This document shows positions 352 through 28,724 of a DNA stretch of 64,000 nucleotides, in pieces. Source of the stretch: a virus; IMG/VR virus record IMGVR_UViG_3300010885_037407, positions 16,740-80,739 of that record; one strand, given 5' to 3'. Within the stretch, counting starts at the first letter, position 1; every line of letters begins with the position of its first letter. The notes beneath the pieces were generated by a model that ran no database searches, was not told the DNA's origin, and worked only from the letters and a program-made list of their open reading frames with translations. The translations under genes were made by a program, and so were the position numbers.

Positions 352-352
352 A

Positions 353-1808: not shown

Positions 1809-1809
1809 T

Positions 1810-2811: not shown

Positions 2812-2819
2812 AAATTTGT

Positions 2820-5273: not shown

Positions 5274-5893
5274 AATGTATCATAATAATTATTTTGTTTC
5301 TCTTGCCTATCGATTGTCTTTGGATGATATAAACAGAATTCTTCTTCTGTAGGAAGGAATGTAACTGATTGGAATCCTTCTAATACTTCATGCACTTTAT
5401 TCTTCCATTTTATATCAGAAGTGTTTTTATAAATTCTCCATTGATAGTCTGGAAAGTTTACCCATCCTTTATCATCTACATTCCATCTCCACTTTTGGAT
5501 ATACTCTTGTGTTAAACCTTCTACCGTATTAATTCTAGGCACACGAAATACATCTATATCTTGATTGATTTCCAGAATATAAGGAAGTCCGTTTATAAGC
5601 TCTTCGTTGGGAAGTTCATCTGCATCTATTTGGAAGATATAATTTCCTGAACATACTTTTGTTAGTTTGTTCTTCCAATCAGCAAAGTGCCCTTCAAATT
5701 CAGATTCGATTAATAGTATCTGATTTATTGAAGCACATGCTCTTAAAAGTTCTTGTAAAGTCTGAGACATTTTAGGACTATCTGCTAGTACTACTATCTC
5801 GTCTTGTTCTCGTTTGTGAATGAGAAGGAAGTTGATTAGCATTGCTACCTCCTTCTCTTCATTGCAAACTGTTATTGCATAACTAATTTTCAC
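5270..5893 (-). CDS. GT2-family glycosyltransferase
   Basis: A 207-residue GT-A fold enzyme. The N-terminus ISYAITVCNEEKEVAMLI is the classic family 2 start, and DAD at residues 90-92 (YIFQIDADELPNEELI) is the metal-binding motif. A C-terminal WRW...WVNFPDYQWRIYK segment resembles that of small GT2 enzymes. The start codon is GTG (5891-5893), overlapping the upstream TAG in a TAGTG junction; no ATG is better placed. It would transfer one sugar from a nucleotide donor in the cytoplasm. Confidence 0.85.
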   Translation of the reverse strand: MKISYAITVCNEEKEVAMLINFLLIHKREQDEIVVLADSPKMSQTLQELLRACASINQILLIESEFEGHFADWKNKLTKVCSGNYIFQIDADELPNEELINGLPYILEINQDIDVFRVPRINTVEGLTQEYIQKWRWNVDDKGWVNFPDYQWRIYKNTSDIKWKNKVHEVLEGFQSVTFLPTEEEFCLYHPKTIDRQEKQNNYYDTL

Positions 5894-7272
5894 TATTCTA
5901 TTTTTTTAAGTTTAGGTAAAGTGATTTTAGGTGCTTCATTTGACTCTAACTTTTTAAGTTTAGGCAAAGTAATTTGTGGTGTGTTGGTACCATTTACTTT
6001 TTGTAACTGTGGTAATTTCAAAGCAACTTGTTTCGGAAAGTCAGGAAGTCTATTAGTTAGTATACTATCTAATTTGTCTTTCATAGCATCAAACGAAAAA
6101 TTTGTTTTAATATGATGATACGTTTTTCTAGACTTTTCTAAATATAATTTATAGTTTTTAAATACATCTTTAAAATACGCTCCGGCAGCTGCATAATCAA
6201 TAGTAAACCATTGTGATTCTTGAAGAATAACTCCTTTCCATGCAGCAGAATGATGTACATTTGTCATTTGACCAGGTACTAATACAGATGATTCTGAATT
6301 TAAAAAATCTAAATGCCCTGAGTAGTTAGTAGTGATAATAGGTTTTCCTGTTATAGCAGCTTCCATCAATGGTCTTCCAAATCCTTCTCCTTTTGTGAAA
6401 GATACATGTGCTTTTACTTTAGTATGATTATATAAATCATTTAATTCTATTTCTGTAAAGTCGCCATATGCTAAATATACATTAGGTAAATTTTTACTAT
6501 CTATTGTAGATTTAATAAAATCAATTTTATTTAAAATATCATTAGCATCAACTTCTGATATAGACCCTCCCGTTGTTTTAAGAACTAATGCCGGAGCATT
6601 TGTTTTATTTTTAAATGATTCAAAAAACGTTTTAATCATTCCGCCTACATTTTTTCTATCTTCTCCTAATGAACCAGGCAACCAATGACCTACAAATAAG
6701 AAACAAAAATCTTCTTTTATTTCATTAAATAATAGTTCAACATTTTTTGATGACGTATAAGCTTTTTGAAATTTATCTAATCTAATTCCTTCAAACAATA
6801 CTTCAATTGGCTTTTCTAATCGAAGGGTGCCTACTAACTGCTGTGTATTTTGATCTTTTTTATCATATGTAGTCTCTATAAATACTTTTTTAGCATGCTC
6901 TGATGATACTAAATTTAAGTCCATTCTATTACATCCCTCAATCCAAGATGCGTCACATGCATTAGTTTCAATACCAGCCGTAACTCCTATATTGAATTTT
7001 CCTACTCTTTGAAATTCATTAGGAACTGTAACTTGCATAAAAATTTCAGGTTGCGCAGTAAGTTGCTGTGTTAATATTCTAGATATAATATCTGTATCAT
7101 TATTAGTTAATGCGTTCATAGGAGTTGCGCCCCATCGCGTACTAACAATCTTAACATCATATTTGTCTAAAGCAATAATTGCTCTTACTAAATCTCGACT
7201 ACGTTCGCCATATCCTGATCTAGTTCCTACAGGCGCTTGAAATAATAATACTGGTTTTGTTTCGTTGCTCAT
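5893..7272 (-). CDS. GT4-family glycosyltransferase with repeated LPKLKK tail
   Basis: A 459-residue GT-B protein. The donor-site signature FTKGEGFGRPLMEAAITGKP, with the two glutamates of the EX7E motif, lies in the C-terminal half, preceded by a VGHW...GEDRKNV segment. Residues 416-459 are unusual: three degenerate repeats of a basic amphipathic unit (LKLPQLQK, ITLPKLKK, ITLPKLKK) separated by short N/T/E-rich linkers. The domain call is solid. The tail is probably a binding or anchoring appendage (inference). Three bases separate it from the next upstream transferase. Confidence 0.85.
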   Translation of the reverse strand: MSNETKPVLLFQAPVGTRSGYGERSRDLVRAIIALDKYDVKIVSTRWGATPMNALTNNDTDIISRILTQQLTAQPEIFMQVTVPNEFQRVGKFNIGVTAGIETNACDASWIEGCNRMDLNLVSSEHAKKVFIETTYDKKDQNTQQLVGTLRLEKPIEVLFEGIRLDKFQKAYTSSKNVELLFNEIKEDFCFLFVGHWLPGSLGEDRKNVGGMIKTFFESFKNKTNAPALVLKTTGGSISEVDANDILNKIDFIKSTIDSKNLPNVYLAYGDFTEIELNDLYNHTKVKAHVSFTKGEGFGRPLMEAAITGKPIITTNYSGHLDFLNSESSVLVPGQMTNVHHSAAWKGVILQESQWFTIDYAAAGAYFKDVFKNYKLYLEKSRKTYHHIKTNFSFDAMKDKLDSILTNRLPDFPKQVALKLPQLQKVNGTNTPQITLPKLKKLESNEAPKITLPKLKKIE

Positions 7273-7275
7273 AAC

Positions 7276-8655
7276 TTATGCTTTAATTAATTTTATTGTA
7301 GCTTTTGGTTTCCAATTTTCTAACAATGTATTGATATCTTTAATGACATTGCTACCCATTGATTCAGCTGACAATCCATGCTCTGCTTTCATGAAATGAT
7401 CTCTGCCTATATGACCAAATTCATTTCTTAAATGAGGATGGGTCATATACCAATCATATAATTTATTTCCTGCGTCTTTGTAATCTGCAATATCATCAAA
7501 TATATATGGAGTAGCTGGTGAGCCTTGTAAAGTTCTTACAGCTGGGAAGGTTGGTTTAGCCCAAACTCCACAATCTTTATAAGTACCTTCTGCATTGGTA
7601 GGGAAATCAATATTATAATCATCTGCCATTAAATATGAACCGTCTTCTTTCTTGAAGCCACATTGGTCTTGCATACCTCCTGTTACATTAACTACAATTG
7701 GAGTTCCAGCCATTACTGATTCTGCCGTTCCTAAACCAAATCCTTCATTTGAAGCTAAATTGGCAGTTACGTCTGCAATATTATAAAGGAAATTTAATTG
7801 TTTAGTATCTATAATTCTTGAAGGTGTGAATTGTACTCTATAAGGGCATAATTCTTTTATTACTGCAATTAAATCTGTACCATTTTCGTCTACTTGTTCT
7901 GTATGTAATAGTAAAACACATTTACTTGATTTTTCTTTAGGTAATTTATCGCAGAATTCTTTATACGCTAATATTAAATCTGATGTATGTTTACGTCTAA
8001 TGTTTCTAGAATTGTGAAATACTACAAATTCAGTATCTTTAGCTACTATAGTATCTTTATATTCTAAATATTCTTTCCATTGTTCATGAGATTCATATAT
8101 TGGAAAGAATTGTTTATCATTTATACCATGAGGTACATAAGTAATTTGCCAATCTTTATAATCTTCTCCTTTAAGTACTTGTTTAACAATATTATGTGTT
8201 TGTTTGGAAATACACATTAACAAGTCACATGATTTATAAAATGGTTTGTTCCACATTGGATATGGAGTATCATCCCAAATTGTATAATATGCAATTGGTA
8301 TGAACTGTCTTAATTCATGTTCCATTGCATACAACCAACCCCAAAATCTAGGATCTGTAAAGTGTAATATTACGTCTGGTCTTTCCATTTGGATCAACTC
8401 CCTTAAAATTTCTTGGTCACCGTAACCGCTATTGCAAAATATTTTGACGCTAGCATCTGCTACGCCTGTAAGTTGTGCTACATCTTGAGACAAGTCAAAC
8501 ATCTTGCCTTGGTCAGGATGATTTAGCGCGGCTCCTAATTGAACCCAATCAAATTCTTTTATTGAATTTAGTACGATTTCTCTCGACATTGTCGCAATGC
8601 CAGAATGCATTCTCAAATCGTCAGATAACAGAAGTATCTTTTTCTTTTTTGTCAT
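7276..8655 (-). CDS. GT4-family glycosyltransferase
   Basis: A 459-residue GT-B glycosyltransferase. The N-terminus KKKILLLSDDLRMHSGIATM is typical of the acceptor domain of GT4 enzymes, and ASNEGFGLGTAESVMAGTPI carries the donor-site EX7E glutamates. It has the same length as the neighbouring GT4 gene but is not an obvious duplicate. It is the first large gene of the left glycan cluster, transcribed behind an AT-rich promoter-like motif at 8681-8708. Acceptor unknown. Confidence 0.85.
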   Translation of the reverse strand: MTKKKKILLLSDDLRMHSGIATMSREIVLNSIKEFDWVQLGAALNHPDQGKMFDLSQDVAQLTGVADASVKIFCNSGYGDQEILRELIQMERPDVILHFTDPRFWGWLYAMEHELRQFIPIAYYTIWDDTPYPMWNKPFYKSCDLLMCISKQTHNIVKQVLKGEDYKDWQITYVPHGINDKQFFPIYESHEQWKEYLEYKDTIVAKDTEFVVFHNSRNIRRKHTSDLILAYKEFCDKLPKEKSSKCVLLLHTEQVDENGTDLIAVIKELCPYRVQFTPSRIIDTKQLNFLYNIADVTANLASNEGFGLGTAESVMAGTPIVVNVTGGMQDQCGFKKEDGSYLMADDYNIDFPTNAEGTYKDCGVWAKPTFPAVRTLQGSPATPYIFDDIADYKDAGNKLYDWYMTHPHLRNEFGHIGRDHFMKAEHGLSAESMGSNVIKDINTLLENWKPKATIKLIKA

Positions 8656-14882: not shown

Positions 14883-16490
<1,608 letters not shown>

Positions 16491-17786
16491 TTAACTTACT
16501 GAATTGTTTTTAATTAATTTTTGTTCTTTTTTTAATTTTTTTACGTCTACTGCATCAAACTCTGTAAAATCAAAATATTCTTGAGATACTTCACGTGCAA
16601 TATTCATAACATTTTCTCCGCCATACTTAACATAAAATTGTCTATATCTTTCATATACTGCAATTGGATCTGGAGAGTTAAACATTTCTTCCATAGATCT
16701 CAATACTTGAATTAAGTCATTTGGAATAATATCTATCATTGCTTCTAATGGACAAGTATCAATTAGTTGCTCAACATGATCTCTGGTATAGATGTACATG
16801 TATAAGTTATGATACGTTGCTCTAGTTACTGCTTCAGTTGACCAATTTTTAGCAATGTCATAAGTAAAATAAGGCACTCCTGGATGATTTACTAATGAAG
16901 GCAAATGACCGTGATCAGGATAACCCATATTAGAACCATCTTTTGGAAAATACAACATATTAAATACTTGATCTTTCCAATTAGGACTCCAAACCATTTG
17001 ACCAAATATTGGATATTGACCTGGAGAAGAGCTATCTGTTGAAATAGTAATTCTGTTATCAGTATACTGATTCATCAATTTTTGTAATTGTGATAAAATG
17101 AAGAAGTCTGATACTTTAGATATTCCCAATAAATGGACCCAAGTGTTTTGAGGTTTCAAGAATTCCTTTTCTTTAATCATCAAAGCCAAGATATACATAA
17201 AGTCTACTAGACGTCTAGAAGATCCAATACACCAACCACCAAATTCTAAATCTTTAACTGTTTTAAACCAATGGGCAAATTCAGCAGGATTAGAACCTTG
17301 AACTACATTTAAGAAATTAGTTTTACCAGATTGTTTCTTTTCAAAGTATTTGAAATTATCTAAACTAATATCTAATGCTTCTTGGAATCTACCTTCATAA
17401 GTAACACGAGGTGGAATATCTATATTTGCAGCAACATCTGAATTAGCTTCTAACCAATCAAATATTTTATCACGCAATGCCATATCCCATTTCAAAGCTC
17501 CTGTTGCAATTTGGAATCCTCCCGAATCTCCGAACACTACAGCTCCTTTGTCTAGACCCCATTTTTGTCTAATATCTTCTTTCTTATATAAATGACCAGC
17601 AGTCATAAGAAAGTATTTGTACCGCCATTCTTCAGGTACTCTATCATCCCAAAATCTATAAGGGACACCGGGTGCAACTTCTGCATCTTTTGTTAGTGGC
17701 GAACTATAAGCTCCACTACTTAAAGAAGGGAAATATACCATTTTTTTAGGTTGTCCATGAACAGACCCATCTTGATTTAGTATCAT
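16491..17786 (-). CDS. dpdA: DpdA-like DNA guanine transglycosylase (TGT superfamily)
   Basis: A 431-residue TGT-fold protein. Asp87 in FGDSGGFQIATG matches the DSGGFQ general acid/base motif. SDVAANIDIPP (116-126) matches the SD...D substrate-binding strand, VVQGSNPAEF (161-170) the VQGG segment, GGWCIGS the GxxIGG segment, and Asp251 in STDSSSPGQ the catalytic nucleophile position. The CxCxxC zinc site of tRNA TGTs is not visible. With folE, queD and queE nearby, the likely role is exchanging guanine in phage DNA for a 7-deazaguanine. It could instead act on tRNA. Preceded by a promoter-like motif at 17803-17833. Confidence 0.8.
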   Translation of the reverse strand: MILNQDGSVHGQPKKMVYFPSLSSGAYSSPLTKDAEVAPGVPYRFWDDRVPEEWRYKYFLMTAGHLYKKEDIRQKWGLDKGAVVFGDSGGFQIATGALKWDMALRDKIFDWLEANSDVAANIDIPPRVTYEGRFQEALDISLDNFKYFEKKQSGKTNFLNVVQGSNPAEFAHWFKTVKDLEFGGWCIGSSRRLVDFMYILALMIKEKEFLKPQNTWVHLLGISKVSDFFILSQLQKLMNQYTDNRITISTDSSSPGQYPIFGQMVWSPNWKDQVFNMLYFPKDGSNMGYPDHGHLPSLVNHPGVPYFTYDIAKNWSTEAVTRATYHNLYMYIYTRDHVEQLIDTCPLEAMIDIIPNDLIQVLRSMEEMFNSPDPIAVYERYRQFYVKYGGENVMNIAREVSQEYFDFTEFDAVDVKKLKKEQKLIKNNSVS

Positions 17787-17802
17787 ATTTTTTATTTATT
17801 AG

Positions 17803-17833
17803 TTTAAATATAAGAAATTCTTATGAAGATTCC
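17803..17833 (-). promoter_or_regulatory. Candidate early/middle promoter motif ahead of dpdA
   Basis: Coding strand GGAATCTTCATAAGAATTTC followed by TTATATTTAAA, a close match to the recurrent AGAATTnCTTATATTTA motif. It lies about 17 bases before the dpdA-like ATG and just after the radical SAM gene, suggesting dpdA-groEL can be transcribed independently. Confidence 0.55.
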
Positions 17834-17837
17834 AAAT

Positions 17838-18857
17838 TTATTTATATTGCTCTGGTATACCATACCATGATTTACTTATTCTCATATCAGGACCGCAGTT
17901 ACATCTTAATTTGCCACAAATAAATGCTTTATTATTTAGTTTAACTCTTAAATCATTATTTTTTACTATATTACCAAAATTTCCTGACCAATTAGGTCCA
18001 CAATGAGCTCCTGCAATACTTCCATCCCATTTCACAGATAAATTTGCTTTGCCCGCGTCACATAAATAACCTTTGAAATAATTCGTACCTTCTGACACTA
18101 ATTTTTGTTGTTGAAATTTTTCTTCAGTGCCGTCTTCATATACGACCATGGTCGATTGTACTTTATGTTCTGGATCATATCCATCTAAACCTCTATCAAA
18201 TCTTTGATAGGTATTATCTCTTAAATAAGCTAACTGTTCTTCTGTGTATAAACCTGAGTATTCACCTAAAAATAGTTTATCTCCTTTATTTGAAAAATTG
18301 CTTGAGTTTGATTTAGATAATACTCCTTTGTATGTAATTGGTATATTAATACTCTTAAAATGTTCTACTGCCTCTAGAGTCCTTTCCCAATGCTCTGGGT
18401 CCATTACTACACCAACACCTATCATAGCATTTTTCTTAACTGCAATGTCTATAATTTGTGAAAATTTATTAAATTTAGAATACTTTGAATGAAAGCTTAA
18501 TGAGGTATAATTTATATCTTCTAAAATCTCTTCCCATACAGAAAGAGCAGCACTTCCATTACTAACCAATGTAATTTTAAAATTATACTCTTTGAAGAAT
18601 TTAACTAACTTTTCTATACCTTTATACAAAGTAGGCTCTCCTCCTGTTAATGTTATATATTTACTAGGGTAGTTTTCTATTTCTGGATTATCTAAAAATA
18701 ATTGCCTAAAGAATTTAAAGTATACTTCTACATCTAATACTGGCGTTGACCCGTCATGTAATTGCTTTGGACAATATTCACACTTATAGTTACATAAATT
18801 TGTAACGCTTAGCGTAATATTAAATTCATCGCTAGTAATTGATTTAATTTTATTCAT
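17838..18857 (-). CDS. Radical SAM protein with C-terminal SPASM-like cysteines
   Basis: A 339-residue radical SAM enzyme. The CxxxCxxC cluster is C22/C26/C29 (NLCNYKCEYCPK), followed by the TGGEPTLY SAM-binding motif. The C-terminal third holds additional cysteines (YLCDAGKANL, GAHCGPNW, FICGKLRCNCGPDM), suggesting one or two auxiliary Fe-S clusters like SPASM/twitch proteins. Such enzymes usually modify peptides, sugars or nucleotides. It lies immediately upstream of dpdA. No substrate can be read from the sequence; a role in modified-base or glycan chemistry is inference. Confidence 0.85.
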   Translation of the reverse strand: MNKIKSITSDEFNITLSVTNLCNYKCEYCPKQLHDGSTPVLDVEVYFKFFRQLFLDNPEIENYPSKYITLTGGEPTLYKGIEKLVKFFKEYNFKITLVSNGSAALSVWEEILEDINYTSLSFHSKYSKFNKFSQIIDIAVKKNAMIGVGVVMDPEHWERTLEAVEHFKSINIPITYKGVLSKSNSSNFSNKGDKLFLGEYSGLYTEEQLAYLRDNTYQRFDRGLDGYDPEHKVQSTMVVYEDGTEEKFQQQKLVSEGTNYFKGYLCDAGKANLSVKWDGSIAGAHCGPNWSGNFGNIVKNNDLRVKLNNKAFICGKLRCNCGPDMRISKSWYGIPEQYK

Positions 18858-18860
18858 ACT

Positions 18861-18885
18861 TTAATATATTAATTTCTTTTATTAG
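18861..18885 (-). promoter_or_regulatory. Weak early/middle promoter-like motif
   Basis: Coding strand CTAATAAAAGAAATTAATAT followed by ATTAA, a degenerate copy of the AAAGAATTnCTTATATT motif. It overlaps the 3' end of the upstream glycosyltransferase and sits just before the radical SAM ATG. Low confidence. Confidence 0.3.
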
Positions 18886-19870
18886 ATACAAATATTTGAT
18901 TGATTAATTTTTCTGAATCAAAATAATTTTCAAATAGCAATTCTTGAGTTAGTTTAATCAATGGTCTATATGAATCATAGTTTCCAACTAACTCTTTTAC
19001 TTTGCTAGTCATATCAGGAGCAAATTTACTATAATTGAAAATTGAAGATGTCCATTCTGCAGGATATCTAAATTCTTCTGGCACTAACTCTCTCAACCCT
19101 TCAATGTCTGGTATTAATGGAATTGTTCCTAACAAAATACATTCATAAATTTCAACTCCTATATTTGGATTTGTATAAGGAAGTAATGATAATTTTGCTC
19201 TAGACAATTGCCTTAATAGTTGATGTCTTTCCAATGGCACATGCTCTTGAGCGAAGACAATTTGGATACCTTTATGCACTCTTATAAAGTCGTACACAAT
19301 AGCTTCTTGTAACTGAGTATACTGATTCCATGGGAAAACGATTAAATTCTGTTTATTGAATAAACCATTGTACAATGACATTTCTAAATCTAAATAGTCT
19401 AAAGGAAACGGCATTATATGCAGCTTGTCCTCTGTGACTTTTTGAAGACTTTTGAACTTATCTGCATAGAATTTTGATATGAAGAAGTTCTTATCTAAAC
19501 AATCAAAACTTCCTTTTTCATAAAGCTTTCTCCAAGTTATTTCTGTCGTTGGTTTGTATTCTTTGTCATAATCAATATAACATCCATTGGTCCAAAATCC
19601 TAATAACTCTACATCTACTTGATTGGTTTCTGCCCAATGCTTAACATATCTTGTTGCTGATGACCAAGCATTGGTAAATATAAATTTATCTTCATTAGAT
19701 ATTGATTTGGATTCAAACAATGCTTTGATATCTGCTATGTCTACAACTTCAACAACTTTGCAATCTTCATCTCCTTTTGCTTCTATATATCCTTGTAATA
19801 AAGAAGCTAAATGAGTCTCCCATGAATCGTCTTTGGCAATTAATGGGTCTACTACTACATAAACTGTCAT
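18869..19870 (-). CDS. GT-B fold glycosyltransferase-like protein
   Basis: A 333-residue protein with GT-B character. The C-terminal half has the donor-site pattern LSLLPYTNPNIGVEIYECILLGTIPLIP, in which a glutamate and a small-residue helix replace the GT4 EX7E motif. The N-terminal half begins with a strand-loop start (TVYVVVDPLIAK). It lies between the PolB region and the radical SAM gene, outside the left glycan cluster. Transfers an unknown sugar to an unknown acceptor. Confidence 0.65.
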   Translation of the reverse strand: MTVYVVVDPLIAKDDSWETHLASLLQGYIEAKGDEDCKVVEVVDIADIKALFESKSISNEDKFIFTNAWSSATRYVKHWAETNQVDVELLGFWTNGCYIDYDKEYKPTTEITWRKLYEKGSFDCLDKNFFISKFYADKFKSLQKVTEDKLHIMPFPLDYLDLEMSLYNGLFNKQNLIVFPWNQYTQLQEAIVYDFIRVHKGIQIVFAQEHVPLERHQLLRQLSRAKLSLLPYTNPNIGVEIYECILLGTIPLIPDIEGLRELVPEEFRYPAEWTSSIFNYSKFAPDMTSKVKELVGNYDSYRPLIKLTQELLFENYFDSEKLINQIFVSNKRN

Positions 19871-20040
19871 TATTTTCGAATTCGTTTATATCTTGCTAAA
19901 CCATCATTTGATACACTCTTAAATCGAGCAAATTTTCTAATAGGATATTTGTCTTCATCTGTATCATATACATTTATTTCTCCATCAAATTCCCAATTGC
20001 TCCATTTTCTAGTCCACCATTTTAAAATTATATCTAACAT
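19870..20040 (-). CDS. Small hypothetical protein
   Basis: A 56-residue basic protein starting at the ATG 20038-20040, two bases after the preceding gene ends. A longer in-frame extension to a GTG at 20091 would overlap the upstream gene and is not needed. It is rich in Trp, Lys and Arg (LKWWTRKWSNWEFDGEINVY). Its stop overlaps the next ATG by one base. Function unknown. Confidence 0.5.
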   Translation of the reverse strand: MLDIILKWWTRKWSNWEFDGEINVYDTDEDKYPIRKFARFKSVSNDGLARYKRIRK

Positions 20041-20042
20041 AA

Positions 20043-20402
20043 TTAATTGATTTTTTCTACACGAGCACCATTTTCTTGATCTTCCCAACACTCAACCCAT
20101 TCACAATCAAATCTTTCTAAAATTTCACGCGATAGCATTTCACAAGATTGAGAACCAAATTCATGAGTTCGAGTGCCATTGTCATAATACTTATACTCAA
20201 GATGACCTAATACATCTCTTTTAAACATTATAAACTCTACATCTCTATCATCATGATTAACTGCTTTGCTAATTGTAAAGTGAAACATATGTCTATGCCT
20301 GTCAGCTAAAAACGCAACTTCAGGAAATAACTCTGCTGCCTTTGGAAAGTTGTGCATTGCATCAACTGCCAATTTAACCATTACTGTTGTTTTTGTATTC
20401 AT
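20043..20402 (-). CDS. Conserved phage protein of unknown function
   Basis: A 119-residue protein immediately downstream of DNA polymerase, in the position where T4 has regA, but without visible RegA similarity. Distinctive segments are ADRHRHMFHF, HDDRDVEFIMFKRDV and EFGSQSCEML, rich in His, Asp and Arg and probably a compact alpha/beta fold. The same pattern occurs in uncharacterised proteins of other large phages (recollection, not searched). Possibly involved in nucleic-acid metabolism; no function assigned. Confidence 0.6.
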   Translation of the reverse strand: MNTKTTVMVKLAVDAMHNFPKAAELFPEVAFLADRHRHMFHFTISKAVNHDDRDVEFIMFKRDVLGHLEYKYYDNGTRTHEFGSQSCEMLSREILERFDCEWVECWEDQENGARVEKIN

Positions 20403-20411
20403 ACTTTTAAT

Positions 20412-22988
20412 TTAGAAGCTGAAGAAATCAGCCATATTATCATTTTTAGGTATTCTGCCATATCTCAAAGCATCATAAAATCCTTGCAATTTATTCTCTA
20501 ATGACGCTGTGAATATTCTATCATAATCAATGTATTGAGTTATGAAGTCAATAATTTCTTTAGGGTCATCAAAACCTTTTACTGCACAACTATCCAATCC
20601 AAATGGGTTTGCTTTTAAATAAGTCCACTTAATCTTTTCTCCATCTAATATAGGTTGAGAAGAAGTTATCTTATAGTACAACATTAAATCATTGTAGTTT
20701 AAAGCTGACTTTGTGTGTGCTGGAGTACCTTTAACTCTATCACCAAACATATTACTTTTGTCTGATTTTTTAGTTTTAACTTTGTACTTTTTCAATTCTT
20801 TAACACCTGTCGGAAACATAATATCAAACATTGGCTTTGATTTCATTTCTTCTCTAAATGCTAACACCTTATCATCAATTTGCTTTTGAGGAGATATGTT
20901 TAAAATATCAATTAAGATACCTGACATAAACTCTCTAAATGCTTTTGGGAAATTGGATCTTACAACATCCATTCCTTTTACATCTAATTTCCATTCTTTT
21001 GCACCATTAGTCATTTGTGATATTAAGATGCCTTTCTCTGATATAATCTTTTGAGCATATCGTTTTTTGGCTATCCATAATCCAGACTCAGCTACATATT
21101 CTTGCTTGATGTTTAAGAAGTGAGTATCAGAGTTTAAGAAATGCTTGGCAAATGAATCCCAAGAATCATTGATATACTTTTCAACTACTTGAGAAGTTTT
21201 ATAAGTAACATCAATTTTTTCTTGTTTAGTCATTGACTTATTCATTTTACTTTCCATTAAATCAATAATTGGTTTAGCAGAAAAGTAATTTGAATCAGTA
21301 TCCACATAAATTACATACTCTTTATCGACACCAGTTTGTTTAGTAAACCATTCATTACCTTTCATCATAGCATGCTTGATAACCTGTTGCCCTGTCAATG
21401 TAATAGACTCAGCATTATCTAAATCATGAAATCTAAAACCTGGAGCTCCTAATGCACCATACAAAGAGTTATTTACAATCTTCATAGTATGCTGTCTAGA
21501 GTCAAAGAATTTAGACATATCAGCATTTCCTTCTTTACCATATTTTTTAGCAAGACCTCTATACTCCTCTCTTTCATTCATCCAAGTTGCTAGAATAGAA
21601 GGAATTAGTCCACCTTTGTCTGCATTGTAAACTACTCCAATTGAAGATACGGTACATTTATTATCTAATAGCCATTGACGAAATTCAATGTCTGGAATTA
21701 AATAATGTTTTGAGCCTGACTTCAACTTCATGTTTAAGTCTGCTGTCTTACCTGACCAAAATGCTTCTTTCACTGCATCCCAATTCTCTACTCTACCAAA
21801 TTTAGTTTCTGGAGATATGTTTAAAGTTCTAATGATAGAAGGATATAGAGATGCCATATCCTCATCAAATACCCATTCATAAACTCCTGGTATTGGATCT
21901 TTTACATAGGCTCCTGCAAAGTCATTAGATATTGCTTCTTCTCCTGCAGTCACAGCTTCACGAAGCTTTTTATTAGGAGCTACAATATCTAAACGTTTCA
22001 TATAGGTTATACATGCACCATCTAAATATCTAGTTGGAAAATATACATCTTCATAAGGCACATGACCTTTGTGACATATACCTCGAGCCAATGAAAGGAA
22101 TTTAAGTTTTTCATCTAATTCCAATACCAATGTAACGTCATTAACGTTATACTCAATAAACTTCTCAGGGTCTGTTTTATATAAATGATCTAGATTTCCT
22201 TCATATTCAATTTTACCTTTACCTAATTCCTTTTTACAAATATTGTCCAATGAATAAGATGACTCTTCTGAATATGTAAATAATTTATAAAGTGCCATGT
22301 AATCTAAACAAGACACTCCCATAATTCTATATCGATTTCTGTGCTGTAAATAAATTACTTCATTTACTGGAGAAAGCATATCAGCAAATTGCTTTCCGTG
22401 AACTTGAGTTATTCTATTATACAAATAAGGAATATCAAAAAAGTCAATGTTCCATCCTGTTATAATTGTAGGTTTGATCTCAAGATAGTGAGTAAGGAAT
22501 CTAGTAATTAATTCATCTTCAGTAGTTACTACTTCTAAAATTAAATCCTTATCTGTATATGGTTTTAAGTTTTTATCCTTATCTACAATAATTGCTACTG
22601 ATTGATTCCCTGCTCTGTCATGAAATGCGATTGAAGTCATTGGTTGCCAAGCTTCGTCTGCCGATGAAAAACCTCCTACTGTTGAAACCTCAATATCTAT
22701 AAATAATTCTTTATGACCCACTGAAGGATCATCAGATTCAAAATACATATCTATTAAGGTTCTAACTTCTGGATTGATATCAGACTCATATATCTGACCT
22801 TTTTGAATATCATGCTCATCCCAGTTAGTAACTTTCTCTACTTTGTTACCATCTAATGCAACACATCTTCCATGTGCACTTTTCTTATAAGCATATTTTT
22901 TAAATGGAAATTGTAAATGTCCTAACTTGTCGTCCCAAACATGTACTAAATTTTTATTCTTTTGATATGCTATATTTTGATATGCCAT
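20412..22988 (-). CDS. Replicative DNA polymerase, family B (gp43-like)
   Basis: An 858-residue family B polymerase of T4 gp43 type. The exonuclease motifs are FIDIEVST (Asp98/Glu100), the GWNIDFFDIPYL segment and YNVNDVTLV. Polymerase motif A is EDMASLYPSII, motif B KIVNNSLYGALG and motif C YVDTDSN. The C-terminus ends NDNMADFFSF, a plausible clamp-binding peptide. Works with the clamp, clamp loader, helicase and SSB encoded in the window. No intein or split is visible. One base separates it from the upstream glycosyltransferase. Confidence 0.97.
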   Translation of the reverse strand: MAYQNIAYQKNKNLVHVWDDKLGHLQFPFKKYAYKKSAHGRCVALDGNKVEKVTNWDEHDIQKGQIYESDINPEVRTLIDMYFESDDPSVGHKELFIDIEVSTVGGFSSADEAWQPMTSIAFHDRAGNQSVAIIVDKDKNLKPYTDKDLILEVVTTEDELITRFLTHYLEIKPTIITGWNIDFFDIPYLYNRITQVHGKQFADMLSPVNEVIYLQHRNRYRIMGVSCLDYMALYKLFTYSEESSYSLDNICKKELGKGKIEYEGNLDHLYKTDPEKFIEYNVNDVTLVLELDEKLKFLSLARGICHKGHVPYEDVYFPTRYLDGACITYMKRLDIVAPNKKLREAVTAGEEAISNDFAGAYVKDPIPGVYEWVFDEDMASLYPSIIRTLNISPETKFGRVENWDAVKEAFWSGKTADLNMKLKSGSKHYLIPDIEFRQWLLDNKCTVSSIGVVYNADKGGLIPSILATWMNEREEYRGLAKKYGKEGNADMSKFFDSRQHTMKIVNNSLYGALGAPGFRFHDLDNAESITLTGQQVIKHAMMKGNEWFTKQTGVDKEYVIYVDTDSNYFSAKPIIDLMESKMNKSMTKQEKIDVTYKTSQVVEKYINDSWDSFAKHFLNSDTHFLNIKQEYVAESGLWIAKKRYAQKIISEKGILISQMTNGAKEWKLDVKGMDVVRSNFPKAFREFMSGILIDILNISPQKQIDDKVLAFREEMKSKPMFDIMFPTGVKELKKYKVKTKKSDKSNMFGDRVKGTPAHTKSALNYNDLMLYYKITSSQPILDGEKIKWTYLKANPFGLDSCAVKGFDDPKEIIDFITQYIDYDRIFTASLENKLQGFYDALRYGRIPKNDNMADFFSF

Positions 22989-23993
22989 CTATTTACTTGT
23001 TTTAATAACGTCAATCATTATTTGTGCATTGTTATCCCATTTTTCTGTCCAAGACATTGGAACTACTAAACCACCTTCATTGAATTTTGTTTCAATTTCA
23101 TATACTGATTCATATACATTTTTAGCAGGTACCATTTCAGGGCAACAAGCTCTATTCGGAACTAAAATTTCACAACCAAAATAAATTGCTTCTTGAATAG
23201 TGTAGCCAAACGTTTCTTGATAAGCAGTTGACAAATACCATTTTGCTCTTTTCATTAAATCAAAATACTCTGCTTTTGTCAATGAATGTCTATACTCAAT
23301 ATTTTTAGGAAGTTTACCTAAATCTTTTGCTGGGCCTGAAGAAGTAATAATAATTTTCTTATCTGTGAATTTTGCAAATTCTATTAATTCAGCAATTCCT
23401 TTTTCTTTGGAAAATCTATGTGGCCAAATAACAAAATCTTCTTTGGCTCCTTCGTTTGGAAATTGCTTCATATATTCCAAGTCCCATACTAATCCTGTTG
23501 TGTAAACAGTTGCTGGATTCAAATTGAAATGGTTACATACATTTTCTTTATGGTCATCACTGCCTACAAAAATTCCATCACATATAAAGTGATATCCTGC
23601 TTCTGAAGCATCTGCCCAATATGATAATTGTTGTACAAAGTCTGTCTTATCAGCTCTACCTGCATAATTAATTCCAAATACTTTTACATCCATGTCTTGT
23701 AACTCAGACATATATTTAATCATTTCAATTCCTGGAAAGAATATATCTCCAATTAAAAATGAATCTCCGTTTTCTACTTTGCCTTCATTGAATAAATCTG
23801 CAACCATTTGAAGTTGGGCTGCTTTGAATTTACATGTATTGACAATGTCTAGAAATTGACCTCTTTTAATTTCAGTATCAATTTCTACTTTTGGATACAA
23901 TGAGATATCTACTTTTGGATAGATAGCTGCATTCATCATTTCGGTATATCTTTGTGGTAATTCTTCTAATGGAAGATAAATAATTTTGCTCAT
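22989..23993 (-). CDS. GT4-like glycosyltransferase
   Basis: A 334-residue GT-B protein. The donor domain carries FVIWPHRFSKEKGIAELIEF, the typical GT4 R/K-rich loop, and then STAYQETFGYTIQEAIYFGC with both EX7E glutamates. The N-terminal acceptor domain is short and unusual (MSKIIYLPLEELPQRYTEMM). It is placed directly upstream of DNA polymerase, an odd site for a surface-glycan gene, which makes DNA or a replication-associated molecule a possible acceptor (speculative). Preceded by a promoter-like motif at 24012-24038. Confidence 0.8.
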   Translation of the reverse strand: MSKIIYLPLEELPQRYTEMMNAAIYPKVDISLYPKVEIDTEIKRGQFLDIVNTCKFKAAQLQMVADLFNEGKVENGDSFLIGDIFFPGIEMIKYMSELQDMDVKVFGINYAGRADKTDFVQQLSYWADASEAGYHFICDGIFVGSDDHKENVCNHFNLNPATVYTTGLVWDLEYMKQFPNEGAKEDFVIWPHRFSKEKGIAELIEFAKFTDKKIIITSSGPAKDLGKLPKNIEYRHSLTKAEYFDLMKRAKWYLSTAYQETFGYTIQEAIYFGCEILVPNRACCPEMVPAKNVYESVYEIETKFNEGGLVVPMSWTEKWDNNAQIMIDVIKTSK

Positions 23994-24011
23994 AAACTTT
24001 ATTTTATTTTA

Positions 24012-24038
24012 ATAATATAAGTAATTCTATTGAAAGAA
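24012..24038 (-). promoter_or_regulatory. Candidate early/middle promoter motif
   Basis: Coding strand TTCAATAGAATTACTTATAT then TATT matches the recurrent AATAGAATTACTTATATT motif. It overlaps the last codons of the upstream glycosyltransferase and could drive the GT4-PolB unit. Confidence 0.5.
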
Positions 24039-25418
24039 ACTAGAGAAAGATTCAATTTCCTCCTCTACAACTTCTTTGTGATATAAGTTTCCTTCTGCAT
24101 CCACTACACCTAAATATGTTTCTGTATTGGTATGTTTAACATTGTAATAATTGGCATTAGCATAAATAGATTCAATATCACTCGTTAAATAAATAACTCC
24201 TTTGGTATTTTGTGTTTTGAAATATTCTGATAAAGCAATCCAAGTTCCTTCATTTTCCTTTAAATAAGTATAAAGTCTATTTCTAGGAATTGTTTTTGAA
24301 TTAAGCACAGGGCCATTTTTTAATAAATTCAACAAGGCAGTTTCATATGCTAATTGATAATCTTCAAATTCTTTAGCAACTACCTCTTCATTGTGAACAT
24401 GATTGTTGTACAAGTTCCAAATTACATCTACACACTCTGCTTGATTAGCTACTGTTAAATTTGTCATATGATGAAAGTTGTAATGCCAATTATATTTGTC
24501 TAATACAACAGTTGGCATAAATCGTAATGCTTCCATTACTGCAATTCCGAATGATTCATTTTTATAAGGCATTAGAGCTACCTTTGCAGATTGAATCAAA
24601 GCTGCTTTTTCATGACCTACTACATCAGATACAATTTCATAATTAGTATGTCCTATAGCTGCAAAGTCAGCTTCAAACTTTTTAACATGAGCCTTTCTAG
24701 TTAAAACTTTTGCCTTTAATTCTACTCCATACTTTTCTTTAATACCTGCTAATGTCTTAAAGTATATTTCAGGATTTTTTCTATCTTCATGGCGTCCAAT
24801 AAATAACAATCCTTCTTGATTTGTTAAATTTAAACTATCAGAATCAGTTATTGGATAAGGCTGAATGTATAAATTATGACCGGGATCTTTTTGAAGTTTG
24901 TCATAATTTTGTTGAGTTTGTATTAGTGTAGTAATTGGAAAATACATCATTTTCTCAATTAAATCATAATAACAATCTTTGAATACTCCTGCAGATAGTT
25001 CTGGATTAATAGATGCACATTCATGAGCATATGAAGCTATCTTAATACTTTTATGCAATTCCATTTGATAACAGGTAAAAGCTGATTCTGTGTCATTGCA
25101 AATAATTAAATCGTAAGTGTGATTGGAAAGTGCTTTGACAATAGCAGTTCTGAAATTTATTGCTTTTTCGAAATTGAAGCTATCTCCAAATTGAAATAAG
25201 TTAGAATGCTTTCCATAAGAATGGCGTTCTGCTTTGTCTGGCGTATATACATTAACTTCATATTCTTCTAGGAAATTTGCTTCTGGTTCCCCGTCACACA
25301 CAATATCAATACAATGGCCGTTTTGAAGAAGTGTCTTGACTACACCTAACATGAAAATTCCGTGCCCTGAAGAGGGACGGAAATTCATTTTGTTTATTAT
25401 AAATAATACTCTTTTCAT
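24027..25418 (-). CDS. GT4-family glycosyltransferase
   Basis: A 463-residue GT-B enzyme. The N-terminus KRVLFIINKMNFRPSSGHGI is a typical acceptor domain start. LLFIGRHEDRKNPEIYFKTL is the GT4 donor-domain opening, and MPYKNESFGIAVMEALRFMP holds the EX7E glutamates. The ATG lies 3 bases downstream of one arm of an inverted repeat (25422-25438) that also flanks the neighbouring gene. Acceptor unknown; third glycosyltransferase of the replication region. Confidence 0.85.
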   Translation of the reverse strand: MKRVLFIINKMNFRPSSGHGIFMLGVVKTLLQNGHCIDIVCDGEPEANFLEEYEVNVYTPDKAERHSYGKHSNLFQFGDSFNFEKAINFRTAIVKALSNHTYDLIICNDTESAFTCYQMELHKSIKIASYAHECASINPELSAGVFKDCYYDLIEKMMYFPITTLIQTQQNYDKLQKDPGHNLYIQPYPITDSDSLNLTNQEGLLFIGRHEDRKNPEIYFKTLAGIKEKYGVELKAKVLTRKAHVKKFEADFAAIGHTNYEIVSDVVGHEKAALIQSAKVALMPYKNESFGIAVMEALRFMPTVVLDKYNWHYNFHHMTNLTVANQAECVDVIWNLYNNHVHNEEVVAKEFEDYQLAYETALLNLLKNGPVLNSKTIPRNRLYTYLKENEGTWIALSEYFKTQNTKGVIYLTSDIESIYANANYYNVKHTNTETYLGVVDAEGNLYHKEVVEEEIESFSSFFQ

Positions 25419-25421
25419 AAA

Positions 25422-25438
25422 TAATTACTGTGCTAGCT
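25422..25438. repeat. Left arm of an inverted repeat flanking 25445-25816
   Basis: Reads TAATTACTGTGCTAGCT on the plus strand. Its reverse complement recurs at 25841-25858 with a one-base insertion. The two arms bracket the small membrane-protein gene and could pair in RNA or be relics of insertion. Confidence 0.6.
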
Positions 25439-25444
25439 TTTATT

Positions 25445-25816
25445 TTATCCGTTTAATATTTGTTTTTTACTTTCTTTTTTTGTTTTAAGCTTATGCTCAA
25501 AGTATTCTTCTAATGCTTTTAATCTTTCATTGAGATTCAAATTTGTTCTGCCTTCCAGCTTATCAACTCTTGAATCTGTATGACTAATTGCTTCACTGAA
25601 CATAGTATTTACTCGATCAATCTCTCGATCTATTCTTCTATTAACGCTTAAGTCATTGTCATTAATTTGTTTTTCAATTGAATTAGCAAGTGCTGATTCA
25701 AGATTTGCAGCAAATACTTGCAACTTATTAACTTCTACAACTGTCTTAACCAATACCACAACCCCTGCTATTCCAAGAACTGCACCTATGCCTAAAATAA
25801 ATGATAATGTTTCCAT
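25445..25816 (-). CDS. Small membrane-anchored coiled-coil protein
   Basis: A 123-residue protein. Residues 5-28 form one strongly hydrophobic transmembrane segment (LSFILGIGAVLGIAGVVVLV), followed by a long charged helix with heptad repeats and a lysine-rich end. Probably a bitopic membrane protein with a cytoplasmic coiled coil, perhaps a spanin, inhibitor or membrane tether; nothing discriminates. It is the only gene between two arms of an inverted repeat, so it may be a cassette inserted between folE and the glycosyltransferase. Confidence 0.6.
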   Translation of the reverse strand: METLSFILGIGAVLGIAGVVVLVKTVVEVNKLQVFAANLESALANSIEKQINDNDLSVNRRIDREIDRVNTMFSEAISHTDSRVDKLEGRTNLNLNERLKALEEYFEHKLKTKKESKKQILNG

Positions 25817-25840
25817 ATGTTTGATTTGTTAATGATAATT

Positions 25841-25858
25841 AGCTAGCACAGATAATTA
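25841..25858. repeat. Right arm of an inverted repeat flanking 25445-25816
   Basis: Reads AGCTAGCACAGATAATTA on the plus strand, the reverse complement of the left arm apart from one inserted base. It runs into the folE stop codon. Confidence 0.6.
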
Positions 25859-26497
25859 CTTTTTAGCTTTTAAATAATCTATAAATTTATAAAATTCATT
25901 TCTAGTAGCTGGATCTTCTCTGAAAGCTCCTGAAAGTTTACTTGTAATCATAGTTGAGTCATGTCTAACTCCTCTAACACAAGCACACATATGATTTGCT
26001 TCAATTACTACTGCTACTCCTTTATTTCCTTCACAAGTTGCATTTATAAATGATGCAATTTGTTCAGTTAAATTTTCTTGCACTTGAGGACGTCTTGCGA
26101 AATACTCTACAATTCTATTTAATTTAGACAATCCAATTACCTTACCATCTGGAGAAGGAATATAAGCTACGTGAGCAAATCCAATAAATGGTAAATGGTG
26201 ATGTGAACAAAATGATTTCATATCAATATTACCTTGAAATACTACACCATCATACTTATCTAAATTATCAAATGCTGTGATTTTAGGAGCATCTACAAAA
26301 CAACCTTGAGCTAAATCATTTACAAAGGCTTTTGCTACACGTCTAGGCGTATCAGATGAATTAGGGTCATTTTCCCAATCAATTCCTAATGCTGTCATGT
26401 AATTACCATAATGAGTAGCAGCATGTTCAATCATTGCCAACTTCTCTTCTTCTGTTCTTGGAATAGAAGAATTTGCATATTTCAATAACTCTGTCAT
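25856..26497 (-). CDS. folE: GTP cyclohydrolase I (FolE)
   Basis: A 213-residue FolE. Zinc and catalytic residues are visible in [19 protein letters not shown] and in [15 protein letters not shown]; the dimer/tunnel segment [20 protein letters not shown] is canonical. It converts GTP to dihydroneopterin triphosphate, the first step for both folate and 7-deazaguanine synthesis. Its operon also carries queE and queD, so the product most likely feeds the 7-deazaguanine branch. It abuts groES with no gap. Confidence 0.95.
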
Positions 26498-26833
26498 TTA
26501 CAAAGGTAATTCTAATTGTTCTTCATCTTCAAGTATAGCCAAGAATTCAGATTCTCTATACAACATATAATCTACTCCACCTAATTTAATTAGCTGACCT
26601 TGACCATAAGGAGGTAATACTACTTCCATTCCTACTTTTGCAGTCATTGGAATTAATACTCCATTTTGAGTATACAATCCAGGCCCTACTGCTACTACTT
26701 TTGCTATTTTCACATCATCAGCTTTAACTGTTTCTGGAATTATAATTCCTGTTGATGTTCTTTTTTCTGATTTGCCTTTTTCTTCAAGTACTAAAACTCT
26801 GTCTCCTAAAGGTCTTATTTTCTTATCTGCCAT
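26498..26833 (-). CDS. groES: Co-chaperonin GroES
   Basis: A 111-residue GroES/gp31-type co-chaperonin. IRPLGDRVLVLEE is the canonical first strand, KRTSTGIIIPE the mobile loop with its hydrophobic III tripeptide for docking on GroEL, and VDYMLYRESEFLAIL the last strand pair. The C-terminus has an acidic and hydrophobic extension (EDEEQLELPL). It should cap the phage GroEL (14883-16487) or the host one. It sits between queE-associated genes and folE. The length equals T4 gp31, but the sequence is closer to bacterial GroES. Confidence 0.93.
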   Translation of the reverse strand: MADKKIRPLGDRVLVLEEKGKSEKRTSTGIIIPETVKADDVKIAKVVAVGPGLYTQNGVLIPMTAKVGMEVVLPPYGQGQLIKLGGVDYMLYRESEFLAILEDEEQLELPL

Positions 26834-26836
26834 AAT

Positions 26837-27025
26837 TTATTTAATTGAATATTTTGTTCTTCCGTCTAACGACTCTGCTTTTATTAAATCTTTAGTAATA
26901 TTTACTAATTTCATATCATGATGCCTTTTTAATATTTCTATTAATTCAACACGAGTAAGTCTTTTGTTTTGCCATAATGTATGCAAAGCTCTTAACATTT
27001 CAAATTCCGTAGCTTTATTTATCAT
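26837..27025 (-). CDS. Small hypothetical helical protein
   Basis: A 62-residue, mostly helical, basic protein (FEMLRALHTLWQNKRLTRVE) whose pattern suggests a small winged-helix-like or helix-turn-helix domain, though I cannot confirm it. Overlaps the upstream gene by 11 bases and lies 3 bases from groES. Possibly a regulator; function unknown. Confidence 0.45.
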   Translation of the reverse strand: MINKATEFEMLRALHTLWQNKRLTRVELIEILKRHHDMKLVNITKDLIKAESLDGRTKYSIK

Positions 27026-27311
27026 CTAATTTAATTTCATCTTCTTCTTTAACTATAGGTATAAAGTTTTCTTCATCTTCATCAGTCAGACTAGTGCCTG
27101 ATAATGTAAGTAACATTCTTTCTTTAATTTCTGAATTTACTGCTGCGTCCATTAACTTAATTAAGTTAAGTGGATCTTTACCAAAGATATTAAAGAATCT
27201 TTCTAAACTCTCGTCTAATTGGAAACGAGTATCGCCTTGAGCCCAGCCTTTCTCGAAATCAAGATCAAGTACAAAGGCATTTTTCAATATTTTATCTAAA
27301 TCTAAACGCAT
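27015..27311 (-). CDS. Small acidic hypothetical protein
   Basis: A 98-residue acidic protein with a helical centre (FNIFGKDPLNLIKLMDAAVN) and an Asp/Glu-rich tail (TDEDEENFIPIVKEEDEIKL). No known motif. It overlaps queE by 10 bases and the following gene by 11, so it is translated with the queD-queE-groES-folE set. Function unknown. Confidence 0.5.
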   Translation of the reverse strand: MRLDLDKILKNAFVLDLDFEKGWAQGDTRFQLDESLERFFNIFGKDPLNLIKLMDAAVNSEIKERMLLTLSGTSLTDEDEENFIPIVKEEDEIKLDDK

Positions 27312-28075
27312 CTTTCTGTATCAAAAGCAATTATATGAGGTCTTCCTGTAAATCTAAATCCATTATCTCTTACCCAATCCATTACTTTAGGATAGGTTTT
27401 CAATAGTGCTACTCTAGTATCACCTGCCGGCATAAAATAAACTTTATCTTCTGGAATGTCCATCATATGAATAAATCCTAAAATTTCTTCTAATATTGAT
27501 TCTTCTTCACCATCCCATACAGGTTTGATTTGATAATCTAAATGATACACAATTGATTTAGCTATAGCATCATAATTCAATCTTAACTTGTTATGCTGCT
27601 TGACCATCTTGTCGTCAACGATGTCGCCGCTCGGAGTGCTAACACCTGGTTTCGGAATACTATTTGAAAACTTAGGGCTAATGCTAAGTAAATCAATCGG
27701 AAAGTCTGTTTCCAAGAAATGACTTCCTTCAGTTTCCATAGTAATAAAAATTCCTCTTTCATTTGCTAAATGTGTTAATTCGTTTACTAATGCCGGATGC
27801 ATTGTAGGAGATCCTCCTGTTAGCATCATTTCTGTGATGTGCGGATTTGCATCATACATAGCTACAATGTCATTGAAGCTAAATGTACCTTTTTCAGGAT
27901 GAATAGAAGTGTACCAAGAATCACACCAACCACCATCTCCAAACCAACATCTGTGAGTACAGCCTGTCGTTCTAATTACTATAGTAGGATAACCTGCTCG
28001 AGAACCTTCTCCTTGAACTGCAGTGTATATTTCTACTATAGGAAGTGTTTTGTTATAATCTTCTATTCTTTTCAT
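27302..28075 (-). CDS. queE: 7-carboxy-7-deazaguanine synthase (QueE-type radical SAM)
   Basis: A 257-residue QueE. VEIYTAVQGEGSRAG is the family N-terminus. The cluster is GCTHRCWFGDGGWCDSW, a CX3CX7C arrangement (the extended form seen in other phage and bacterial QueE), and MLTGGSPTMH binds SAM. It converts 6-carboxy-tetrahydropterin to 7-carboxy-7-deazaguanine. Its ATG overlaps the stop of a 47-residue ORF as TAATG. Strong call. Confidence 0.93.
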   Translation of the reverse strand: MKRIEDYNKTLPIVEIYTAVQGEGSRAGYPTIVIRTTGCTHRCWFGDGGWCDSWYTSIHPEKGTFSFNDIVAMYDANPHITEMMLTGGSPTMHPALVNELTHLANERGIFITMETEGSHFLETDFPIDLLSISPKFSNSIPKPGVSTPSGDIVDDKMVKQHNKLRLNYDAIAKSIVYHLDYQIKPVWDGEEESILEEILGFIHMMDIPEDKVYFMPAGDTRVALLKTYPKVMDWVRDNGFRFTGRPHIIAFDTERCV

Positions 28076-28218
28076 TATTTAACTCCTTTAGATTTGTAAT
28101 GGTCTGCTTTGGAAAATTTAGAAGAAGACTCTTCTTTCTTTGCAACAAATGGCTTTTTAATTGTTGGTAACCAAGCCATAAATTGTTCGTAATTTGATTT
28201 TGCTGAATTCTTGCTCAT
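28075..28218 (-). CDS. Small basic hypothetical protein
   Basis: A 47-residue ORF (ATG 28216-28218, TAA 28075-28077) filling the gap between queD and queE. It is Lys/Ser-rich (KNSAKSNYEQFMAWLPTIKK) and ends KADHYKSKGVK. The TAATG junction with queE indicates coupled translation and argues that it is a real gene. Function unknown. Confidence 0.5.
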   Translation of the reverse strand: MSKNSAKSNYEQFMAWLPTIKKPFVAKKEESSSKFSKADHYKSKGVK

Positions 28219-28241
28219 GTAATTTATATTTAGTTATTTGT

Positions 28242-28724
28242 TTATCCTCGATATGAATTGCATATCTGATATGACGCTGCATTTCTTTCATGCTCATACA
28301 CTTCTACTTTTACTGCTGATACTCTGCCTTCAGTCTCTTCTTTAAGAAAATTATTAATTTTATTGAAAAGATACTCTGCAAATCTTTCACAGCCTGTTTC
28401 TGGAATTATTCTTAATTGAATAATACCTTCCGTGTTCATTTGCTTAAATAAAGGCAAATAAGGATCGTCTTCTGCTATGACAGTAGTATGATCTAATAAA
28501 TTTTCAAAAAACTCTTTAGGAGTAAATCCGTCAATTTTATTGGTAGCTCTTTTCATTCCGCCAAAGTCCCATACCCAGTTTCTTTCATCTAGTTCACCTT
28601 CAAACCATACTCTAAAAGATATAGCATATCCGTGAAGAAACTTACAATGCGTGCCATCTGCTTTCCATTGACGAAAACAAGTAGAGTAGCCGTCAAATAA
28701 CTTTGTTGATTGAAATTTTTTCAT
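28242..28724 (-). CDS. queD: 6-carboxy-tetrahydropterin synthase-like protein (QueD)
   Basis: A 160-residue QueD/PTPS-fold protein. THCKFLHGYAISF matches the catalytic-Cys and zinc-His segment, LLDHTT supplies the Asp-His dyad and KVEVYEHERN the substrate Glu. Two of the three usual zinc histidines appear replaced: the FxAAH position reads CFRQW, and HGH reads HGY. This variant may use other ligands, yet the context with folE and queE strongly supports the 7-deazaguanine step. Promoter-like motif at 28729-28752. Confidence 0.82.
   Translation of the reverse strand: MKKFQSTKLFDGYSTCFRQWKADGTHCKFLHGYAISFRVWFEGELDERNWVWDFGGMKRATNKIDGFTPKEFFENLLDHTTVIAEDDPYLPLFKQMNTEGIIQLRIIPETGCERFAEYLFNKINNFLKEETEGRVSAVKVEVYEHERNAASYQICNSYRG

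Follow-up and report, generated by a model that had tools for sequence, protein, structure and literature searches.

A QueC-less 7-deazaguanine module in a T4-like phage, with a divergent DpdA-like enzyme and a candidate QueD-fold decarboxylase

The IMG/VR virus record IMGVR_UViG_3300010885_037407 is 80,739 bases long, and its bases 16740-80739 (64,000 nucleotides, hereafter the window) carry a putative module for 7-deazaguanine modification of DNA. FolE, QueD and QueE of the DNA 7-deazaguanine pathway are all present, together with a DpdA-like protein of the tRNA-guanine transglycosylase (TGT) fold (Table 1). An earlier reading of the sequence, referred to here as the original prediction, had named these four, and family searches and the fold of the transglycosylase bear it out. 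All genes of interest in the interval lie on the minus strand, and the gene set is found again in dozens of contigs, so it is not a product of chance. Missing from the gene list of the original prediction were a 119-residue open reading frame in the same interval, whose product has a QueD/PTPS fold and is a candidate enzyme acting on 7-carboxy-7-deazaguanine (CDG), as well as three glycosyltransferases and a second radical S-adenosylmethionine (radical-SAM) protein. Judged by its sequence, the phage is T4-like; its B-family DNA polymerase has its best match, at 40% identity, in Microcystis phage Mel-JY01 (tblastn to T4-like phages), and the sliding clamp and clamp loader lie close to the polymerase.

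Table 1. Genes of the module and its neighbours, in window coordinates
Feature	Position	Strand	Basis or context
DpdA-like guanine transglycosylase, divergent family, 431 aa	16491..17786	-	AlphaFold2/Foldseek fold; relatives match PF01702
Radical-SAM protein between GT-c and DpdA	17838..18857	-	PF04055 E=6.3e-13
Glycosyltransferase GT-c, adjoining the DpdA locus	18869..19870	-	Homologous to GT4-type neighbours in relatives
QueD/PTPS-fold protein, 119 aa, PHROG 17812, candidate CDG-acting enzyme	20043..20402	-	AlphaFold2/Foldseek
B-family DNA polymerase (gp43-like), context	20412..22988	-	tblastn, T4-like phages
Glycosyltransferase GT-b, second in conserved block	22989..23993	-	PF00534; upstream of polymerase in nearest relatives
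Glycosyltransferase GT-a	24027..25418	-	PF00534/PF13692
FolE, GTP cyclohydrolase I	25856..26497	-	PF01227 E=1.8e-52
QueE, 7-carboxy-7-deazaguanine synthase	27302..28075	-	PHROG QueE E=1e-51; TIGR03365 E=1.6e-16
QueD, 6-carboxytetrahydropterin synthase	28242..28724	-	PF01242 E=2.8e-15; PHROG QueD E=5.6e-39

Record searches support an absence of QueC that is lineage-wide and not caused by the window edge. That the window lacks QueC, as first noted from the sequence, holds in searches with PF06508 and TIGR00364, and the same two models find none in the whole 80,739-base record. PF06508 detects no QueC in 25 related records or in nine additional DpdA-bearing records, and only two (G051 and G052) of 12 further metagenomic records match. 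TIGR00364 agrees with PF06508 on the absence in the subset of records searched, and QueC was recovered in the positive controls immuto, Vibrio 2.275, phiSM and Motura. QueF was found in none of the seven family records searched. A 181.6 kb relative (G001) encodes FolE, QueE, QueD and DpdA and lacks QueC. Genes from its two ends map near each other in contig G005, and likewise in G033, and the lineage's genome circle therefore appears to be covered without QueC, an argument from synteny among records of which none is labelled complete. Completeness of G001 by terminal repeat was rejected, as merely 125 identical bases precede the point at which similarity fails.

The 119-residue protein was recognised by its fold. 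Its AlphaFold2 model, with a predicted local distance difference test (pLDDT) score of 94.2, adopts the PTPS fold, and its top Foldseek matches in the PDB are all QueD/PTPS proteins (E. coli QueD, 4ntk; template modelling (TM) score up to 0.71). The protein matches PHROG 17812, listed as 'unknown function', at E=1.6e-24, and no Pfam family, PTPS included, at E<=1. Profile comparison with QueD returns a weak local match only, so kinship with QueD was not accepted from sequence alone. Invariant residues of the family include H17, H36, H50, R53, D54, E56, S86-C87-E88 and E107-D108; H17, H36 and the nearly invariant H38 are, from conservation, a candidate three-histidine metal site. A profile of the family finds the reading frame in most DpdA loci (64 of 74 distinct loci), including those of the 25%-identity PA5oct-like clade, and also matches phiST, MA9V-3 and PA5oct; the single QueC-bearing locus among the 74 lacks it.

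Two isolates carry an N-terminal extension fused to the QueD-fold domain, namely Vibrio phage Bakedbeans (383 aa; L364 8212-9363) and Chryseobacterium phage MA9V-3 (293 aa; L063 21536-22417). Elsewhere, short proteins of 259-303 aa adjoin the QueD-fold frame (L365 9450-10322, L366 9683-10540, L063 22890-23684, L368 9281-10192 and L062 22840-23619). These share DNS/DNG and STDS/SWDTS-like motifs and do not match Pfam TGT, features suggestive of a short DpdA class.

The QueD-fold frame and QueC are almost mutually exclusive, both in isolates and in metagenomic loci. Eleven isolates or groups carry the frame with QueC scored absent, meaning below cut-off (X1 gives a sub-threshold 16 bits): the PA5oct group, Phosso, RHph_I1_18, ACP17, X1, Bakedbeans, Ahp1, BUCT-ZZ01, Roos, phiST and MA9V-3. 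The reverse arrangement, QueC without the frame, is found in four isolates (immuto, Vibrio 2.275, Motura and phiSM) and in the metagenomic records G051, G052 and L342. Fisher's test on the 11-versus-4 table gives p=0.0007, with Vibrio phage D479 left out and in a sample that is not fully independent, most of its phages having been chosen via the frame itself. The frame is not required for the QueD and QueE steps, since immuto has close relatives of both window proteins and no such frame. G026 and G032 keep the frame at a distance from DpdA, so its conservation is not accounted for by plain synteny. Most simply, the 119-residue protein would be a candidate enzyme that takes CDG as its substrate where QueC is missing.

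The DpdA family is divergent and unannotated, and it is recognised by fold or deep profile. By itself the 431-residue protein has no match in Pfam or PHROG, and its PADLOC DpdA match is at E=5.5e-4. The AlphaFold2 model (pLDDT 79) has the TIM-barrel TGT fold, with TM scores of 0.37-0.51; Foldseek places archaeosine TGT 1j2b first among PDB structures (E=1.7e-8) and the solved DpdA 7ui4 second (E=2.4e-8). PDB sequence searches with this family and with the QueD-fold family gave nothing useful. Pfam TGT is matched by 12 of the 24 aligned relatives (best 5.3e-8), across all of which D87-S-G-G-x-Q, D123, Q163-G164 and D251-S-S-S-P are invariant; from these motifs we take the protein to hold the two catalytic aspartates and the guanine-binding Asp/Gln of TGT. 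The TGT zinc site, three cysteines and a histidine, is incomplete: the cysteines are missing in the window's clade, where H326-N327 is retained, and the CxxxCxxC cysteines are kept in the 49%-identity clade. A single-sequence search of IMG/VR returned 56 loci and a profile search at least 579 confirmed stretches. Of 50,697 phage records, just 13 gave a tblastn match, with identities of 25-33%; they comprise the PA5oct group, Sinorhizobium phage Phosso and Vibrio phage 2.275. Apparent internal TAA stops in four DpdA genes proved to be ordinary terminators that the match had overrun. The gene lies in the replication cluster, and both this position and the enzyme family are consistent with DNA, not tRNA, as the substrate.

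We read the locus, at a probability of roughly 55%, as a QueC-less phage pathway for 7-deazaguanine DNA modification, with a QueD-fold decarboxylase and insertion by DpdA. FolE, QueD and QueE would convert GTP to CDG, and the QueD-fold protein would act on free CDG instead of QueC, its most likely role being decarboxylation to 7-deazaguanine. By the TGT base-exchange mechanism, the DpdA-like enzyme would then replace guanines of the phage DNA with 7-deazaguanine. Phage DNA would carry 2'-deoxy-7-deazaguanine (dDG), or 2'-deoxy-7-carboxy-7-deazaguanine (dCDG) if the decarboxylase assignment is wrong; with decarboxylation preceding DpdA insertion, dDG is the likelier. The original prediction that CDG or a derivative is present in the DNA thus keeps its QueC-less pathway, but plain dCDG is unlikely to be the product, because the interval holds the QueD-fold frame and that frame is near-exclusive with QueC. 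A decarboxylase had also been allowed for outside the window; the best candidate lies instead inside the interval, where pattern and fold suggest that the QueD-fold protein is probably the missing CDG decarboxylase.

Several points weigh against this reading. We infer decarboxylation from a co-occurrence pattern, not from a recognised decarboxylase. The DpdA-like protein is far from characterised DpdA, its NCBIfam match (E=3.5e-4, 19.5 bits) falling outside the NF041059 equivalog model with its 200-bit cut-off. Vibrio phage D479 carries both the QueD-fold frame and a QueC-like gene, and the DpdA loci L054 and L331, on short records, have neither. QueC may be supplied by the host, and the window's own genome is incomplete.

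More tentatively, a GT4-type glycosyltransferase might decorate the base after the QueD-fold enzyme has taken the place of QueC, so that large-phage DNA would hold a glycosylated, hypermodified 7-deazaguanine. We consider this possible and on balance unlikely; the phages concerned would be large phages of Bacteroidota, Pseudomonas, Acidovorax, Xanthomonas and Synechococcus. The sugar could possibly sit on the carboxyl group, for example, or on carbon 7 after decarboxylation. In 67 of 74 distinct loci, DpdA has a glycosyltransferase-family gene no more than 6 kb away, and in 53 of them the distance is at most 500 bp. In most polymerase relatives of at least 48% identity the gene order is polymerase, glycosyltransferase, DpdA, clamp, and FolE, QueE or QueD lies upstream wherever the locus extends that far; in the polymerase-44% clade the polymerase is followed by the clamp, without glycosyltransferase, DpdA or FolE/QueE/QueD. 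The sole PF00534 match in the genomes of PA5oct and ACP17 falls between DpdA and the QueD-fold frame, and X1 and BUCT-ZZ01 also have a GT4-type PF00534 gene inside the cluster. GT-c itself has no Pfam match, and its homologue in a relative (L036) matches PF00534/PF13439 weakly.

Against a glycosylated base, phiST, MA9V-3 and Roos have the QueD-fold frame without a PF00534 glycosyltransferase, and in L056 the glycosyltransferase remains by the polymerase, distant from DpdA; because of these counter-cases the proposal stands as a rival and not as the main claim. The window phage encodes many other glycosyltransferases and sugar-nucleotide enzymes, which makes one near DpdA less surprising there. 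To our knowledge, no 7-deazaguanine glycosyltransferase acting on DNA has been described. The polymerase loci are related by descent, and a Fisher test on them was not used, as 17 of 19 apparent exceptions are loci whose ends cut DpdA (in L083 and L084 it sits just past the end). A glycosyltransferase beside DpdA in Rhizobium phage RHph_I1_18 was also set aside, the neighbour not being DpdA-like.

Less probable again is that DpdA inserts plain CDG, leaving dCDG in the DNA, and that the QueD-fold protein works elsewhere, for example in a second pterin step. CDG is the end product of FolE, QueD and QueE in the established pathway, QueC is absent, and decarboxylation by the QueD-fold protein is unproven; yet plain CDG would leave the near-exclusive pattern of frame and QueC in need of a reason, and the QueD and QueE of immuto, of the same type, work without the frame.

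A further possibility is that the phage raises CDG and host QueC converts it to preQ0, giving 2'-deoxy-preQ0 (dPreQ0) in the DNA. Shine-Dalgarno motifs precede 6% of window genes, not above a control stretch, which resembles Flavobacterium, Cellulophaga and Chryseobacterium phages (0-4%) and is unlike the four proteobacterial phages tested (42-91%). Bacteroidota are the likely host, so that a host-encoded QueC is possible, and one Bacteroides control genome is QueC-positive. Host assistance is nonetheless very improbable: more than 40 related records lack QueC, as do many unrelated phages in which the QueD-fold frame is maintained, and this has the look of a dedicated design more than of reliance on the host. 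That the enzyme modifies tRNA is hardly credible either: although it belongs to the TGT superfamily and a tRNA enzyme heads its PDB matches, the solved DpdA comes next, the window gene sits between DNA polymerase and sliding clamp, the window's clade has lost the zinc-motif cysteines, a search of the 80.7 kb record turned up no tRNA gene, and we know of no case of CDG as a TGT substrate in tRNA.

The QueC-less pathway with a QueD-fold decarboxylase can be set beside known systems. Phages with dCDG or dDG in their DNA were reportedly described in 2023, and a CDG decarboxylase, DpdL, is said to have been predicted. The present module resembles these in a predicted route to CDG without QueC, in a predicted decarboxylase and in 7-deazaguanine as the expected base in DNA; its DpdA family and glycosyltransferase neighbour may be new relative to them. 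Hutinet et al. (2019; PMC6884629) showed that DpdA enzymes of phages put 7-deazaguanines into DNA; the DpdA systems with QueC that they describe include those of CAjan, 9g, nt-1, Rosebush and Dp-1. Like these phages, the window phage encodes FolE, QueD, QueE and a TGT-fold DpdA together, with DNA as the expected target; it differs in lacking QueC, in having a DpdA known by fold or deep profile only, and in adding the QueD-fold frame and a glycosyltransferase as conserved neighbours. QueC is lacking in Mycobacterium phage Bipper and clone 7AX_2 as well (Hutinet et al., 2019; PMC6884629), which likewise have a pathway to CDG. The loss was noted singly in those two, whereas in the present lineage it recurs throughout many records and goes together with the QueD-fold frame, which suggests that QueC-less phage pathways are a widespread design with its own partner gene and not accidents of gene loss. 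PHROG 17812 thereby gains a predicted fold and a candidate step, a large unannotated DpdA family is added, and glycosyltransferases are indicated as possible further tailoring enzymes; the module is present in the isolates PA5oct, ACP17, X1, BUCT-ZZ01 and phiST.

Two phages of Bacteroidota bear closer comparison. Cellulophaga phage phiST (L062) shares FolE, QueD, QueE (72% identical), the QueD-fold frame and the lack of QueC with the window, but it has a short 259-aa DpdA-type protein, no PF00534 glycosyltransferase and a gene content that is not T4-like. Flavobacterium phage immuto (L061), which also has a Bacteroidota host, is close in QueE (79% identical) and QueD (65%), but it differs in encoding QueC and QueF, in its short DpdA and in lacking the QueD-fold frame. 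Directly after DpdA and before QueF, immuto carries a formyltransferase-type gene (L061 24370-24897), possibly a further 7-deazaguanine tailoring enzyme.

The QueD-QueE pair looks to have been exchanged between phages, since it is nearer to immuto than to the relative G001 (L018; QueE 57%, QueD 36% identical), while FolE (85%) and DpdA (82%) are near those of G001. Phage QueDs of the window (28242-28724) and of L061, L062, L066, L362, L367 and L369 have a C-x3-HGY motif. E. coli QueD presumably has C-x4-HGH at this place, its first zinc histidine being absent from the phage QueDs, and the phage metal site may differ from that of the E. coli enzyme.

The radical-SAM gene was rejected as a core part of the module because L001, the nearest relative, with a 100% identical DpdA, lacks it; it is probably a recent insertion. 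Its viperin-like scores are weak, at E=7.6e-17 for pVip and 57 bits for NCBIfam viperin, where the cut-off is 180. The window phage encodes GroEL and GroES (14883-16487 and 26498-26833), separated by the polymerase/DpdA block, and GroEL is absent at the corresponding place in some relatives (L026-L029). RNA genes in the 181 kb relative are limited to a tRNA-Glu, one unassigned tRNA and one transfer-messenger RNA, the last with its own tag peptide (L074 7490-7861). A long run of glycosyltransferases, sugar-nucleotide epimerases/dehydrogenase, aminotransferase and methyltransferases, spanning L057 6722-16709 and window 1-8655, is a predicted phage-encoded glycan cassette.

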